Shown in pieces: positions 1 through 51,499 of a DNA stretch of 51,690 nt. How positions within the stretch are numbered: position 1 is the first letter of the stretch; every line of letters starts with the position of its first letter. The notes below the pieces were generated by a model. The model was not told the origin of the DNA. It was given only the letters and a program-made list of their open reading frames with translations, and did no database searches. This DNA comes from Acidobacteriota bacterium (lineage in GTDB: Bacteria; Acidobacteriota; Terriglobia; Versatilivoradales; Versatilivoraceae): contig JAJDUG010000065.1 of assembly GCA_022826755.1 (NCBI GenBank), positions 1 through 51,690 on the forward strand. Reading direction: 5' to 3'. Both the position numbers and the translations under genes were made by a program.

Positions 1-77
1 CCCCAGGTCCGGCGGCAACATCAACAGTTGCTTCGGCTGATACGGGCGAAACCTCGTCCCCATTCACCACCTCCCCG

Positions 78-1127
78 TCATCTCTCTGTGCCCCTTATTG
101 TATCATTCAGGCCTGCCCGGGTTTTCTGCGGCGCAGACTCCGAGGTCCCCACCGGTCCCTGGGTCGGGTCCAACCGGCTGATCACGGGATGCGGGACTAC
201 CGTAAAGGCGACCCCGTTGCTCGCCTGGCCTCCAACCCTCACCAGCACGTCGCCCGTCGTCACCCATCCGGGCACTGCAACCGTGATCGAGGTGTCGCTC
301 CAACTCCTCGTGGGCACCCACCTCTTGTTCATGGTGACCCGGCTGCTTCCCTTCGTCGCTCCAAAGTTGCTCCCCGTGATCGTGAACAGCCCCCCGACAC
401 CGGCCGCCGCCGGGCTCAGCCGCGTGATCACCGGCGCGGGCTTGCCGTCCGGGTCGTTGTCTTCCAAGGTCATCTCACAACTGTGCGAAAGGAATCCCTC
501 CGCGCTTACCTGGACGATGATCGTCTCGTTCCCTTCCCGGCCGCTATCGTCGCTGATAAATAGAGTTCCTTGCGCCGCCGTCTTGCCGGCCTCGATCGTC
601 AACGTCTCCGGCGCCACGTAGTCCCAATCGTTGGTCGCCGTCCCTCCATAGGTGACGCTCACCAACAACGCCCCGCTCCCTGTCCCTTCCCGGCTTACCC
701 CTATCGTGACGGATCCCGACGGCTCCCTGAGCCTGCGGTCCGAGCACGCCGCTCTCAGCCACGGAAGCCGCCTGTACTCCACTCCGTTGCTGGCCTCGCC
801 TCCCACCGTCACCACCACCGCGCTCGCTCCGAAGCCGAGACTCGTGGGCGGCAGCACCTCGATCCGGGTGTCGCTCCAACTCGAATAGCCTGACGCCTCG
901 GTCCCGCCGAAGGTGACCGTCGAGGTTCCCTTGCTTGCGCCGAAGCCCGTCCCGGTAACGGTCACCCCGTTGGAGACGCTGCCGCTCTCCGGCGAAATCG
1001 AGCTGATGACCGGCGCCGCCTGCGCTCCCAGGCCCAGCAGGCTCCACGCCACCGCCAGCAGCAGGGCCCTCCCCGGTCTCTGCGCCGGCTTCGCTCTCGG
1101 CGCCAGGGCCGGTTGTCCGTCTGTCAT
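78..1127 (-). CDS. Secreted IPT/TIG and Calx-beta repeat protein, C-terminus truncated
   Basis: The 349-residue product has a Sec-type hydrophobic segment at about residues 20-38, ending in AQA. An IPT/TIG fold follows (about 40-115, opening PVISSISP), then a Calx-beta-like segment (about 130-225, with SVTIGV, NDWDYV and ISDDSGREGNE) and a second IPT fold (about 232-310). A third IPT repeat opens with PVISRLDPTQGPVGTS and is lost after 16 residues, giving way to an unrelated tail of about 19 residues. Such proteins are normally extracellular, in adhesion or polysaccharide binding. The start is supported by GAGGG six bases upstream of the ATG. The gene diverges from the S24 repressor, and its promoter is overlapped by operator-like palindromes, so joint control is likely. 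The truncation suggests a deletion or recombination joint near position 140; whether the short form is functional is unknown. Confidence 0.72.
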   Translation of the reverse strand: MTDGQPALAPRAKPAQRPGRALLLAVAWSLLGLGAQAAPVISSISPESGSVSNGVTVTGTGFGASKGTSTVTFGGTEASGYSSWSDTRIEVLPPTSLGFGASAVVVTVGGEASNGVEYRRLPWLRAACSDRRLREPSGSVTIGVSREGTGSGALLVSVTYGGTATNDWDYVAPETLTIEAGKTAAQGTLFISDDSGREGNETIIVQVSAEGFLSHSCEMTLEDNDPDGKPAPVITRLSPAAAGVGGLFTITGSNFGATKGSSRVTMNKRWVPTRSWSDTSITVAVPGWVTTGDVLVRVGGQASNGVAFTVVPHPVISRLDPTQGPVGTSESAPQKTRAGLNDTIRGTER

Positions 1128-1179: not shown

Positions 1180-1271
1180 CGCCACTATTATGGCGGATAT
1201 GCCACCTGGGTCAATAAAAAGTGGCGCATATGCCATCTTTCTCATTAGTTTTTTCCGTGGCATAATTGCCA
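1180..1271. promoter_or_regulatory. Cluster of four operator-like palindromes
   Basis: Three 14-bp sites share the form TGGC-N6-GCCA: 1191-1204 (TGGCGGATATGCCA), 1222-1235 (TGGCGCATATGCCA) and 1258-1271 (TGGCATAATTGCCA). A fourth, inverted-sense site CGCCA-N6-TGGCG covers 1180-1195. Centre-to-centre spacing is 31 and 36 bp, about three helical turns. The rightmost site contains a CATAAT -10 box for the rightward gene, whose ATG begins only 5 bases later. The leftmost site contains the leftward -10. The arrangement fits autoregulation by the adjacent HTH/S24 protein; that pairing is inferred from position. Confidence 0.7.
1187..1214 (-). promoter_or_regulatory. Sigma70-type promoter for the IPT/Calx-beta gene
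   Basis: On the minus strand TTGACC (1214-1209) is followed after 16 bp by CATAAT (1192-1187), a five-of-six match to both consensus hexamers. It lies about 60 bp upstream of the ATG at 1127. The -10 box sits inside one palindrome (1180-1195) and the spacer inside another (1191-1204). A protein bound to either would block it. Confidence 0.6.
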
Positions 1272-1275
1272 AATC

Positions 1276-2085
1276 ATGACGTTCTCTGAAATCATCGAAA
1301 CCCACCTCAGACTAACCAAGGTCTCGCCTATCACTGCTGCAAGGCGTGCGGGGCTCAACAGGGATGCGATCCGGTCGGTATTGCGCGGACGGTCTCCGTC
1401 TGTGGATAGGGCCCAACAAATCTGTTCCGCCCTGGGCCTGGAGTTCTACGTCGGCCCGCCCCGCGAACCAGCGTCAACGCGTGGGGCGGAGCAGACTACC
1501 GAATATTCAGCCGGCACGAAGGATCAGATTGTGGAAGAGTTGCGAGGCGTGTTGGACCGGATCACCGGCACGCTGGACAAGGACTACGTTGAAGTTCCGG
1601 TGTACAGTGAGGAAATCACTGGGTTGTCCCAGAGTTTGAATCGTGCCACGGAGTGCCGTTTTCCCTATCACAGAAACTGGCTGGAAAGGTACGGGGTCGA
1701 CAAGGAGAGTTGCTTTATGGTCCGGGTGCGGGGGTGGTCCATGGCACCGACTCTTCCGGACAAGTGCTTTGTGTTGGTCAACGGCGCCGCAACGGAACTG
1801 CGGGACAACGCAGTTTTATTGGTCAGGCACCAGAACCGCGTTATGGTTCGCCGGGCTGAAGTAGACGACCGGGGAAGCTGGATGTTGAGCGGCGACGCTG
1901 ATCCCAGCCTCAAGCTGCAGCGGAAACCGGACGATTTAGTTTTCGGCGAGATTGTGTGGATGGCTCATCACGTCCGTATCCGCATGCAACCGGTGTCCAT
2001 CGCAGCACCTGCTGCCGCCAGCCCGCACATTAACCCGAATTCGTTTCCACCCCTGCCTTCCCCTCACATTCATCACCCACGGTGA
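1276..2085 (+). CDS. S24-family (LexA/CI-like) transcriptional repressor with substituted catalytic lysine
   Basis: The 269-residue protein has an N-terminal helix-turn-helix (about residues 3-58, containing ARRAGLNRDAIRSVLRGRSP), a linker, and a C-terminal S24 peptidase fold (about 105-235). Ser155 in RGWSMAPTL matches the LexA nucleophile. The residue 37 positions later, where LexA has its catalytic Lys, is Arg192 (VMVRRAEV). The S-to-K spacing of E. coli LexA (119 to 156) is also 37. Self-cleavage is therefore doubtful, and the protein may act as a plain dimeric repressor. The architecture is common for phage-type and alphaproteobacterial repressors. There is no Shine-Dalgarno sequence: the -10-like CATAAT ends 9 bases before the ATG, implying a leaderless mRNA. 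A 25-codon micro-ORF follows after 4 bases. Confidence 0.85.
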   Translation: MTFSEIIETHLRLTKVSPITAARRAGLNRDAIRSVLRGRSPSVDRAQQICSALGLEFYVGPPREPASTRGAEQTTEYSAGTKDQIVEELRGVLDRITGTLDKDYVEVPVYSEEITGLSQSLNRATECRFPYHRNWLERYGVDKESCFMVRVRGWSMAPTLPDKCFVLVNGAATELRDNAVLLVRHQNRVMVRRAEVDDRGSWMLSGDADPSLKLQRKPDDLVFGEIVWMAHHVRIRMQPVSIAAPAAASPHINPNSFPPLPSPHIHHPR

Positions 2086-2193: not shown

Positions 2194-2737
2194 GTTCAGC
2201 GCCATATGGGACGCTCTGTGACATCTTGCATTCTGTTGTCATTATCTTGTCAGTCACTTACACCACTTCACACCTTTAAAAACCTGCCTTTTTCGTGTAA
2301 GTCCCTTTTTTAACTGCCATTTAAACAGCTCTGTAAAAGCGCCAAACCAAGTGCGGCAGAGTTCCATTTTTTTGTTTGTCGTCCATACCGCCAAGCTATA
2401 ACGTTGCTGCGCCTTTTGCCGCTTCGGCGGCCACAGCACCTGCCCACAGGTGCAAGCCCGAAGGGAGCGGTGGAAGCATCGGAAGGAAGAGGATGCGGGC
2501 GGGACGCCCGCGCTCCCGGGGGGCACGACCCATCCCGGTAACAACTCCCGCACCCTCCCGAATTTTGAAAAAAGGCGCTGTTGTTTCAGGCAAATCAAAG
2601 GACCATGCCTTCGTGGCCTTGCGATCCCGTCACGGATCACCTCAGCGCCTTGGCGGCCCTTCGTCGTCCGTCGTGTAACTTCGTGGATCACTCATTTCTG
2701 TTTTTTCCGGCAATTACCCATGGCCGGCCTGGCGCCT
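2194..2737. other. Gene-free AT-richer stretch with dispersed repeats
   Basis: No convincing gene is present. The left part (to about 2400) is clearly AT-richer than its surroundings and contains the inverted pair ACTTACAC (2256-2263) / GTGTAAGT (2295-2302). The right part holds one copy of the GCGGGCGGGACGCCCGC palindrome family (2495-2511). It also holds a CTTCGTGG-rich block (about 2609-2692) of the kind often scattered between genes. The only sizeable frame here is built from these repeats. Confidence 0.6.
2495..2520 (+). repeat. Dispersed palindromic element, copy A
   Basis: The core GCGGGCGGGACGCCCGC (2495-2511) is a 7-bp perfect palindrome around GGA, followed by GCTCCCGGG. The same core recurs at 26119-26144, 26299-26324, 34250-34275 and 34401-34426. 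It is always in gene-free DNA. Confidence 0.85.
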
Positions 2738-3778
2738 TCAGGGCCGGGGCGTGAATTCGTGCCTGGGTTTGACCGACCGATTGAAGGGGAAAGGAGGCCA
2801 GTATCCCTGGATCATGCTGGAGAGGGCCTCGGTCACGCCCCGGCGAAGGTCCTCGCCCGACTCCACCGAGCTGGATCCCTGATGGGGTGTGAGCACCACG
2901 TTGTCCAGGCTTCTGAGGGGACTGTCGGCCCCCAGGGGCTCCTCCTCGGTCACGTCCAAGGCGGCGCCGCCGATCCGCCGTTCCCTCAGGGCCTGGATCA
3001 GCGCCTCCTCGTCCACCACTCCGCCCCGGCTGGTGTTGACCAGGAACGCCGAGGGCTTCATCAGACTCAACTCCGGAGCGCCGATGAGATGCCGGGTCCC
3101 GGCACTCAGGAAGGTGTGCAGCGAAACCAGGTCCGACTCTCTCAGGACCTGTTCCAGCGACATCAACTCCACGCCCGCTTCAGCGGCCGACCGGGGATCC
3201 ACGTAGGGGTCGGTAGCCAGGATGCGCATGCCGAACCCGCCCAACCGGGGGACCATGTGCCGGCCGATGTTTCCGAACCCGACCAATCCCAGGGTCAGGC
3301 TGCTGATGCGGCGCAGCGGGTGCTCCAGCGGTGGTTTGTCCCAGCCTCCGGCCCTCACGTGACGGTCCAGAACAACCACGCGCCGGGCGGATGCCACGAC
3401 CAGGGCCGCCGCGTGGTCGGCGACTTCCTCGACGCAGTAGTCGGCCACGTTGAAGACCACGATGCCGCAGTCGGTGGCGGCCTCGACGTCGATGTTGTCC
3501 ACGCCAATTCCGTAGCGGCCCACGGCCCAGCAATCGGGCAGTGCTTGCAGGACTCTTCGGGTAATGGGTGTGAACAAGCCCTCGGTCAGGATGATCCTGG
3601 CCCCGGCGCAAGCTCGAATGATCTCCTCCTCGGTTTGCGCCGACAGCAGAACCAACTCCCCTCCCAGATCCTCCACGGCTTTCCTCTCGGCCGCATAGAG
3701 ACGGTCCTTCTCCTTCTGCGGACGTTCGCAGTCCACGTTCACGACTCTGACGGGCTGTTCTCCCTGTTGGCTGGCCAT
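2738..3778 (-). CDS. D-isomer-specific 2-hydroxyacid dehydrogenase
   Basis: This 346-residue NAD-dependent oxidoreductase belongs to the phosphoglycerate/hydroxypyruvate/glyoxylate reductase family. A nucleotide-binding Rossmann motif GFGNIG lies at about residues 166-171. The catalytic triad of the family is visible: Arg in NTSRGG (about 249), Glu in TEEEPL (about 279) and His in TPHQG (about 296). The N-terminal substrate-binding half contains GRYGIGVDNID, typical for the family. Length is normal for members without an ACT regulatory domain, so serine-biosynthesis PGDH with a regulatory tail is unlikely; the substrate is undefined. The start at 3778 has AAGGAG about nine bases upstream. The gene diverges from the Oar-like receptor. 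Confidence 0.9.
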   Translation of the reverse strand: MASQQGEQPVRVVNVDCERPQKEKDRLYAAERKAVEDLGGELVLLSAQTEEEIIRACAGARIILTEGLFTPITRRVLQALPDCWAVGRYGIGVDNIDVEAATDCGIVVFNVADYCVEEVADHAAALVVASARRVVVLDRHVRAGGWDKPPLEHPLRRISSLTLGLVGFGNIGRHMVPRLGGFGMRILATDPYVDPRSAAEAGVELMSLEQVLRESDLVSLHTFLSAGTRHLIGAPELSLMKPSAFLVNTSRGGVVDEEALIQALRERRIGGAALDVTEEEPLGADSPLRSLDNVVLTPHQGSSSVESGEDLRRGVTEALSSMIQGYWPPFPFNRSVKPRHEFTPRP

Positions 3779-4114
3779 GTTGTTCGCTCCTTGCTAAGTG
3801 TCGATGATTTCGTCTGTTCCGATCCGAATTCGAGTACCCACGCCGGAGCATTGTACCCGAGCCCGGGGCAATCGGAAGAGTGAATCGGGTGGTGTCGCCA
3901 TTGGCGGACCAGGGTGTGCGAATGGTTGTCCTGTGCCCGGATGATTTCCCCATTCCTGCGTCACCTGCTCGAAATTCGGGCGCCGGTTGCAATGGCGTTG
4001 AACATGATGCACAATCGAGGCAGATGGAGTTGTCGTCTTGGGGCGGGTACCGGGGCGGGTACCTGAAGATGGGACTCACTCATCCTTCCGTTTGCTTCCC
4101 TGCCTGCGGTAGTT
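3779..4114. other. Divergent intergenic region with a tandem 12-mer
   Basis: The 336-bp gap between the dehydrogenase (leftward) and the TonB receptor (rightward) has no supported gene. It contains a perfect tandem duplication of GGGGCGGGTACC at 4040-4063, about 50 bp upstream of the receptor ATG. No clear sigma70 promoter was recognised. Confidence 0.55.
4040..4063 (+). repeat. Perfect tandem 12-bp repeat
   Basis: GGGGCGGGTACC occurs twice head to tail at 4040-4051 and 4052-4063. Each unit ends in the palindrome GGTACC. The position upstream of the receptor gene makes a regulatory role possible but unproven. Confidence 0.7.
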
Positions 4115-7100
4115 ATGGCCGCCTTGATCAAGTCTCGCGTGTCAAGTTCGGGTCAGGGTGGCCCCAGGAGGCGTGCCGTGTTCGTTAGACCCTTTGCAAT
4201 TCCAGGCTTTGCGGGTGGTGGGAGTTTGGTTGCCTTTGCCGTGGTGCTGCTTGCGGTGGCCATTCCCGCCGCCGGCCAACTGTTGACCTCCCGCGTGGAT
4301 GGGAGGGTGCTGGATCAGACCGGCGCCGTGGTGCCCGGCGTGACGGTGACCTTGACCGACGCCGCCACCAACGTGGCCCGGGAGACCGCCACCAACAGCT
4401 CCGGTCTCTACGTGTTTCCCAACGTCTCCCAGGGAACCTATAGCGTCGAAGTCGCCGCGGACGGCTTCAAGACGGCCCTGGTCGAAGACGTTCAGGTTGC
4501 GCTGGGCGCCCCCGCCAACGTCGACATCGTGGTGGAGGTGGGCGTGGTGACCCAGACGGTGGTGGTGACGGCGGCTGAAACTCAATCCGTGATGAATGAG
4601 GTCAACGCCGAAATCAATACCAACCTCAACCGGGAGCAGGTCAAGGATCTTCCCCTGAACGGGCGGAGCGTGACCCAGTTGGCCCTTACCCAGGCCGGCG
4701 TGACCAGCCCGGGCGGGGCGCGCTCGGCCGCCATCAACGGCGGCAGGGGCACCTTCAACAACTTCACCCTGGACGGAATCAACAACCAGGACACCTTCAT
4801 CCGGACCGACGCCCTCTTCGGAATCATACCGGTGCAGGAGAGCTTCATCGAGGAGGTGAGCATCACCACCGCCAACGCCGACGTGGATGCCGGCCTGGGA
4901 AGCTCCCAGACCCAGTTCGTGACCCGCTCAGGGGGCAACGCCTATCACGGTGAGGTCTTCTACTACCACCGCAACGATGCCCTCAACGCCAACGACTACT
5001 TCAACAACGCCGCAGGTATCGACAAGGAGCGGGTCTTCATCCACCAGTTCGGCTTCAACGTGGGCGGTCCCATCCTGAAGGACAAGCTGTTCTTCTTCGT
5101 CAACTACGAGGAGGAGCGCAGCCCCGGTACGGCATCGGTGGTCCGCACCGTGCTGACGGAATCGGCCCGGGCTGGCGATTTCAGCTACGTCAGGCAGGAC
5201 AACGGACAGATCGCCACGGTGAACCTCTTTGACCTGTCCGGATTCAGCCCCGACCCGGCCATCGCCTCCCTGGTGGACGTGACCCCGCTGCCCAACGACA
5301 GCAGCGTGGGGGACGGAAGAAACACTTCCGGCTATCGCTTCAACAGCATCAACAAGAGCGATTCCGACTGGTTCGTGCTGCGGGGAGACTACGAGATCAG
5401 TCCCAGCCACTCCTTCACCGGGACTCTCCACCAGTTTGGCCTGGATACTCCCAACTCGGTGTTCAACGGCATCGGCTCCGTCTTTCCGGGTCTGCCCGGC
5501 GCCGGGCAGAGTTCCAAGCGCAGGCTGGGTTCCTTTGCCCTGACCAGCCTGTTGAAGCCCAATGTCACCAACGAGGCCAGGGTGGGCTACCAGACCTCGA
5601 GTCCCCGGTTCTTCACCAACGAGACCTTTCCCCCGGGCTACCGGCTGTCGCTGGGGGGCGGTTTCAGCAACCCCGTCCGGAGTTTTATGGCTCAGGGTCG
5701 CGATACCCGCAACGTGGACATCATGGATCACATTTCCTGGGTCAAGGGGAACCACACCGTCAAGGTGGGCGGAAGCGTTCGCCTGACCCAGGTGGATCAG
5801 TTCAATGACGCCGGAACCGTCCCCACCTACTCCCTGGGGTTCGGTCCCGGAAACCCCGATCCCCTGGTACCCGATATTTTCCCCGGGGGGATCGCCTCCG
5901 GCGAGCTGGGCGCCGCCTCCGGACTCCTGGGCACCCTGGGGGGATTTATCGACAGCGCCGATCAGACGTTCAACGCGGCCTCGCCCTTCTCAGGCTTTGT
6001 CGACGGGGCCTCCAACACCAACCTGCTCAAGCAGAACTTCGTCAACTTCTACATGGGAGACACCTGGCGGATCACCCGCTGCCTGAGCCTGAACCTGGGT
6101 TTTCGCTGGGAATATCACTCGGTTCCGGATGAGGCCAGGGGGCTGGCCCTGTTGCCGGTGGGCGGCTGGCAAGCGGTGCTGGACCCGGATGCCGTGGTGG
6201 ATCTGGCCGGCTCCACCAACGGAAGGCCCTTCTACACCGGCGACGGCAACAACTTCGCTCCCAACATCGGCATCGCCTTTCAACCAGGCCCCGGCCACAA
6301 GACCGTCATCCGCGCCGGCTACGGCATCAACTACGTGGTCGACAACGGCTTGACCACGGTGCTCAACGCCCTGCGGGGCAACGACGGCCTGAGCCAGTCG
6401 GTGAGCCTGTCGGGACTCAGCGGCACCGTCAGTGGCGGCGGGCTGGTGCCCATTCCGGTTCCCGAGTTCCGGATTCCCCGCACCGCCCGGGACGGAATTC
6501 TGGCCGATTCCGGAGCCGCCCTCTTTACCATCGATCCCGGGATGCGCACCCCCTACGTGCAGCAGTGGAACATCGGGGTGCAGCACAGGCTCATGCGGGA
6601 CACCGCTGTTGAGGCGCGCTACGTGGGCAACCATGGCGTCAAGCTGACCCGCGCCATCGATCTCAACCAGGTGATGCTGCCCCCGGACTTCATCGAGGAC
6701 TTCCGGCGAGCGCAACGCAACCTGGCCGCCAATGGGGATCCCAGGATCGGTGAGCCGCTGCAGATCTTTCCGCAACTGGGTTTTGCCGGCTTCCTGCAAT
6801 CGGGGGGCGTCCAGAACTGGATCCGCAACGGGGAGATCGGCCAGTACATCGGCGCTTTTCTGGCCATCAACCGCATTTTCTTCTTCAACGGCGAGGGAGG
6901 CGAGCGCTTCGGGGCTACCCTGCCCGCCAGCTATTTCCTGCGTAATCCCAACGCCTTCGTGAGCGACGTGGTGGGAAACAACGCCTTCTCCAAGTACCAC
7001 GCCCTGCAAGTCGAGATCAGGCGGCGCTTGCGCTCGGGCCTGACGGGCCAGTTCAACTACACCTGGGGGAAGGTGCTGACCAATTTCTCAGGCAGCCAGT

Positions 7101-51202: not shown

Positions 51203-51499
51203 TCAGCCAGGCTCCCGGCGGCTTCCCGGGGCGGCGACCGGCCCCACCGCCGCTTCATCGCTCCAGCCCGTCTGCAACGGCCGCTCGATGCCCGCCGGCC
51301 AGGGAAGTCCTTCAGGCCAGTGCTCGGTAAACCACAGCAGGGCCCGTTCGTAGCTGCCGACGGTGAAGTCCCGCCCCGCCCGGATTCTGGCAATGCGCCC
51401 CCCGTGGTTGAAGACAAGGCTCGAGACCCGCGACTGGCTGAGTTTCACTCTCCGGCAATAGCACTCGAACAGGGTCAGGAGAACCTCTCGGTGAGTCAT
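51203..51499 (-). CDS. Small putative DNA-binding protein (helix-turn-helix-like)
   Basis: The 98-residue protein starts MTHREVLLTLFECYCRRV. The segment LSQSRVSSLVFNHGGRIARI looks like the recognition part of a helix-turn-helix. Then come RAGRDFTVGSYERALLWF and TEHWPEGLPWPAGIERP, an arrangement I associate with small alphaproteobacterial regulators. A Pro/Ala/Arg-rich tail closes it. No ribosome site is obvious. A 5-6-5 palindrome (51511-51526) lies 11 bases upstream of the ATG, a position typical of an autoregulatory operator. Function is inferred only; the protein family is not named with confidence. Confidence 0.55.
   Translation of the reverse strand: MTHREVLLTLFECYCRRVKLSQSRVSSLVFNHGGRIARIRAGRDFTVGSYERALLWFTEHWPEGLPWPAGIERPLQTGWSDEAAVGPVAAPGSRREPG

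Follow-up and report, generated by a model that had tools for sequence, protein, structure and literature searches.

The 148-bp gap (1128 to 1275) between a phage-type repressor gene and the divergent gene for a secreted IPT/TIG protein, in the stretch of Acidobacteriota DNA analysed here (the window, 51,690 nucleotides), is probably an immunity switch that the bacterial chromosome captured from a Mu-like transposable phage and whose leftward promoter now serves the IPT/TIG gene. The captured switch is partly decayed. The locus would offer a clear example of how the decision circuit of a transposable phage can come to control a bacterial surface protein. Its features, from left to right, are as follows.

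1-144, minus strand: start of an IS1182-family transposase element, the contig ending inside it (IS1182 transposase matches)
138-1127, minus strand: 5' part of the IPT/TIG secreted-protein gene (PF01833, 2.1e-22)
1170-1185, no strand: O1, putative operator, imperfect dyad GTGGACATAACGCCAC (read from the sequence and the layout in family loci)
1187-1214, minus strand: predicted leftward promoter, TTGACC (1214-1209)-N16-CATAAT (1192-1187) (promoter scoring)
1191-1204, no strand: O2, putative operator, exact TGGC-N6-GCCA, TGGCGGATATGCCA (dyad clustering in the gap)
1222-1235, no strand: O3, putative operator, exact TGGC-N6-GCCA, TGGCGCATATGCCA (dyad clustering in the gap)
1239-1266, plus strand: predicted repressor promoter, TTCTCA-N16-CATAAT (promoter scoring; position of the last dyad in family loci)
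1258-1271, no strand: O4, putative operator, exact TGGC-N6-GCCA, TGGCATAATTGCCA (position, and layout as in family loci)
1276-2085, plus strand: HTH and S24 repressor, 269 aa (Pfam, phrog, homologue alignment, AlphaFold)

The repressor and its phage relatives

An S24/HTH repressor had been proposed from the sequence alone, and matches to Pfam (PF00717, 3.7e-11; HTH_3, 1.5e-4) and to the phrog_4 'transcriptional repressor' family (1.2e-16) agree with that assignment. An AlphaFold model is confident for the HTH (pLDDT ~95) as well as the S24 domain, and its best matches among solved structures are the lambda and 186 CI repressors and LexA. Relatives were gathered from public genomes and IMG/VR; a scan of genome contigs with a single-protein query returned nothing and the same scan with an alignment query found relatives. 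The repressor of Thiobacimonas phage vB_ThpS-P1 is homologous to that of the window (25% over 89%), and repressors of P. aeruginosa phages, e.g. LPB1 and JBD24, also match it. In phages and MAGs alike, the S24 relatives are divergent from a small gene of the phrog_7669 family, past which MuA and/or MuB are found in many of the loci; one such prophage, in a congener (G003, locus L060), carries phage Mu transposase domains and MuB. By homology and gene context, these relatives serve transposable phages of the Mu type as immunity repressors, and such comparisons establish a phage origin for the window repressor, which has no orthologue in the genus (best match, 34%).

The phrog_7669 family is listed as of 'unknown function' and is without a Pfam match. 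Across from a Mu-like S24 repressor, the first gene is regularly one of its members (e.g. L060:7937-8191, L066:5814-6107, and L065:2736-2963), and two members weakly match the HTH profile built from the repressors (8e-5 and 0.0016). The family probably constitutes the Ner/Cro-like antirepressor of these Mu-like phages, which would give it a suggested role.

Like the self-cleaving S24 proteins LexA, CI, and UmuD, the window repressor has the catalytic Ser (Ser155; Ser in 97/97 aligned homologues), but unlike these, and unlike the repressors of Mu-like phages, it lacks both the catalytic Lys and the Ala-Gly site. The Lys, kept in 95/97 homologues, is replaced by Arg192, and the cleavage motif, near-universally (A/S)AG among the aligned homologues with Ala in the motif column of 92/97, reads Ile-Thr-Gly. 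Among homologues in which both positions are readable, it is the only case to have lost both. As general knowledge of LexA and CI would predict, loss of the catalytic Lys and the Ala-Gly motif should block RecA-stimulated cleavage. Because both are lost, the window repressor is probably not SOS-inducible, and its derepression, if it is indeed RecA-insensitive, would therefore depend on a different signal or on the repressor itself being lost. Only one further S24 homologue, L085 (VXRL01000084.1), has exchanged the catalytic Lys for Arg, and its Ala-Gly motif is intact.

Probable operators and promoters in the gap

The sequence-only reading had described four palindromes in the gap. Its three TGGC-N6-GCCA sites, O2 to O4, are all exact. 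Its fourth, CGCCA-N6-TGGCG, is present as letters at 1180-1195 but is composed of the facing halves of two neighbours, O1 and O2; the true fourth site is the imperfect O1, whose centre lies 20 bp, or two helical turns, from that of O2. When the 148-bp gap was shuffled by dinucleotides, at least three dyads sharing a half-site at N6 spacing arose in 2 of 20,000 shuffles, and a corresponding cluster with spacers of 2 to 10 permitted arose in 3 of 3,000; within the 51.7-kb window, the cluster of at least three N6 dyads is unique to the gap. A regulon built on the same sites was considered and rejected: the genome contains two other exact copies of TGGCNNAWWTGCCA, both inside open frames, and no extragenic copy beyond the locus.

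Promoter-like matches number 3 in 201 bp, vs 0.4 in shuffles. Both of the promoters proposed earlier were recovered where expected. The leftward one has its -10 within the 1180-1195 palindrome, with O2 positioned between its -35 and -10 and sharing two bases with the latter; by layout, it is the predicted counterpart of the Mu-type early promoter. The repressor promoter has a weak -35 (TTCTCA, 1239-1244) and a -10 (CATAAT, 1261-1266) that lies inside O4 and ends 9 nt ahead of the repressor ATG at 1276, so that the repressor would have a near-leaderless start, with its TSS near 1273. Both promoters are very probably under the control of one protein.

The same layout is conserved across the family. 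In a sample of 32 family gaps, with the window left out, dyads of 12-16 bp with 4-bp arms and spacers of 4, 6, and 8 bases occurred at 3.5, 3.9, and 5.0 times the shuffle frequency, respectively. Most family gaps carry several dyads with one half-site, and in most family loci the final dyad coincides with the repressor start or lies immediately ahead of it. A leftward sigma-70-like promoter scoring at least 8.7 was present in 53% of 34 gaps, a set that includes the window and one phage, vs 14% of shuffles.

A short ORF of 17 codons, MSTTTSTPMPGFQRGTQ, lies at 1124-1177 on the minus strand; it starts ~3 nt past the predicted leftward TSS, and its end overlaps the IPT start as ATGA. It is possibly a leader peptide with coupled translation, or else a product of chance.

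Recognition helices and half-sites

Half-sites vary among the loci, following the recognition helix of the repressor:

helix LP(E/G)NA(V/I)RYVLEG: half-site TCGCTA
helix LP(A/P/S)DAIRNV: half-site TCGGTA
helix GNPYFLYG: half-site TTGG
helix G(A/S)PDLIREM: half-site GGGAT

For 22 loci, modestly thinned for relatedness and compared with our own alignments and dyad calls, pairs with 7/12 identical helix residues had an arm sharing of 0.28 vs 0.03 for the others (permutation, 0/5000), and C-terminal-domain identity bore no relation to shared half-sites among the same 22 thinned loci. A rule would follow for the repressor family of these phages, in which the sequence of the recognition helix predicts the operator half-site. 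The best helix match to the window is that of L086, from an alphaproteobacterial MAG (LPRDAIRSVLTG vs LNRDAIRSVLRG). L086 bears TGGCATAAATGCCA, a TGGC-N6-GCCA dyad almost identical to O4 of the window, ahead of its repressor start, but its remaining dyads are GTCGA, not TGGC. Because half-sites covary with the helix and L086 carries the matching site, the TGGC-N6-GCCA sites are very probably the operators of the window repressor. Together with the Mu-like identity of the homologues and their common operator geometry, this covariation upholds the earlier suggestion of a phage-type immunity region.

The output gene

The divergent gene had been read as encoding a surface protein of IPT/Calx-beta type. 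Pfam supports IPT/TIG (2e-22), and the protein has a signal-peptide-like start (by eye); the Calx-beta part found no Pfam match and reflected appearance, and the gene of the proposed surface protein is interrupted. Since the first codons of an IS1182-family transposase lie within bases 1-144, the break by an IS1182-type element falls near codon ~330; the element also breaks the assembly. MGTRFRPYQPKQLLMLPPDLG matches annotated IS1182 transposases, the IPT ORF runs on to position 78 and thereby gains 20 IS-encoded codons, and window 1-144 recurs as the end of another contig of the genome (G000:C36:25572-25715). A homologue at G002:C754, 57% identical to the window protein, has an open frame of >1200 aa.

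In family loci, phrog_7669-A-B occupies the place taken in the window by the IPT gene. No phrog_7669 match was found at the locus next to the window repressor, nor any match to MuA or MuB within the window, whose left end lies inside the IS; with MuA and MuB absent from the window and the neighbours host-type, a prophage in place was ruled out.

A prophage remnant beside a bystander, i.e. an immunity region that regulates itself alone while the IPT gene, adjoining by accident, has its own control or none, would be compatible with the lack of any further phage gene nearby, with the missing Ner-like neighbour, and with the finding that most IPT genes of the genus have no switch. This explanation is unlikely: the IPT gene starts ~53 nt from the predicted leftward TSS without an intervening gene, and parts of the switch are shared by two further IPT loci in another genome of the genus (G002), one of them with phrog_7669 directly before the IPT gene.

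Recurrence in the genus

The genus genomes compared are MAGs or assemblies, among them Ca. Versatilivorator vitaminiformans m_rhlh7; near relatives of the source bacterium presumably live in sponges, and our literature search found no paper on 'Versatilivorator'. At G002:C700, an intact phrog_7669 ORF (3.6e-14) directly precedes an IPT gene, with a short HTH relic on the side of phrog_7669 opposite the IPT gene. At G002:C754, the homologue of the window's IPT gene is accompanied by decayed traces of both regulators, the HTH relic being in the expected place and on the expected strand. The HTH relics are weak when taken alone (E of 0.03-0.05 for C754 and about 1-2 for C700); the two switch regions are 64% identical over 385 bp (E=2e-32), and TGCA-N6-TGCA dyads are present in both. 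Sequence comparison thus places switch parts at two G002 IPT loci, and stages of the capture process would be visible within one genus: an intact Ner-like gene (C700), relics (C754), and a solo repressor (window).

Neighbouring genes are unlike at the window, C700, and C754, and host-type by eye. A search found no switch at 13 other genus loci with large repeat or TIG-type genes; the pairing of switch and IPT gene is therefore rare. In the wider phylum, phrog_7669 occurs in a few other genomes, with no IPT gene in the flanks read, and IPT homologues of the wider class are large TIG-type repeat proteins with no switch parts in the short flanks examined. Synteny of the window with its nearest relative, G006, starts at 2418 (94% DNA identity over 2418-5348), so that the switch and IPT gene represent either an insertion relative to G006 or a loss there. 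Near the break at 2418 lies a short, GC-rich repeat (2494-2523), a second copy of which is found in G006.

It is tempting to speculate that the three genus sites reflect a recurrent cassette of a Mu-type immunity switch plus an IPT gene, encoding a phage-toggled surface protein, an idea that we consider rather improbable. If true, an infecting or resident Mu-like phage with the same repressor/Ner specificity could toggle the surface protein.

Mechanism and known systems

In the favoured reading of a captured Mu-like switch, a dimer of the S24/HTH repressor would bind the four dyads O1-O4, of GTGGC-N6-GCCAC type. Occupancy of O1-O3, which sit beside or across the -10 and -35 elements of this ex-early leftward promoter, would shut off transcription that in the phage leads into ner-A-B and in the window would lead into the IPT/TIG gene for a secreted surface protein. 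Occupancy of O4 would cover the -10 of the near-leaderless repressor promoter and result in negative autoregulation. With no Ner partner, the locus would function as an autoregulated off-switch, not as a two-way switch. With its output gene broken and no Ner arm left, the locus has a doubtful present-day function.

Those same losses, along with K192R, the lost Ala-Gly motif, and decay at both G002 loci, would be expected of a dead relic in which the IPT gene was once under the switch and nothing is controlled now. We regard this as rather improbable, given an intact repressor frame with confident HTH and S24 domains, three perfect operators, and two intact promoters. Least credible by far is an ordinary, non-phage LexA-like host regulator with a local operator, to which the LexA-like fold and a paralogue (L002) whose chromosomal position is conserved across the genus might point, but against which stand the phrog_4 and phrog_7669 families, the Mu-like gene context of the homologues, and the restriction of the operators to the window locus.

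In the B3-like P. aeruginosa phage Fc02, the repressor and ner are divergent and both promoters lie in the gap between them (PMC9936078). The window resembles the Mu-like immunity regions of Fc02 and vB_ThpS-P1 in its short gap with both promoters and genes facing away, its HTH-S24 repressor of phrog_4, and a dyad array over the divergent promoters, one member of which lies at the repressor start. It differs in having an IPT/TIG gene as output and no ner, A, or B. Because ner and A-B are missing, the window is not itself a Mu-like immunity region; it descends from such a region, and its expected behaviour is that of the repressor half.

The reuse of phage switches by bacteria is already known, and the nearest precedent is a Listeria cI-cro-like locus that controls the secreted proteins Mtz and Tim, as established by RT-qPCR and deletion tests (PMC8235301). 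Both loci pair a chromosomal, phage-derived repressor with a divergent secreted-protein gene. In Listeria, however, the regulators are an XRE CI/Cro pair that repress each other and the output is metzincin/TIMP-like, whereas the window keeps a lone S24 repressor with a putative IPT/TIG output. A Mu-type regulator has also been recruited to host gene control in the case of Mu Ner and host SfsB/Nlp (PMC8987985); there the Ner homologue was recruited, and in the window the repressor and operator region. Our literature search found no description of a Mu-like phage switch paired with a secreted surface gene.

Members of phrog_7669 were present in 7/7 genus genomes examined. One such gene lies at the far end of the window (51272-51499, minus strand); its probable partner is L002, the S24 paralogue conserved in the genus, whose gene is located at the end of contig C16; contigs C23 and C16 are therefore probably adjacent.
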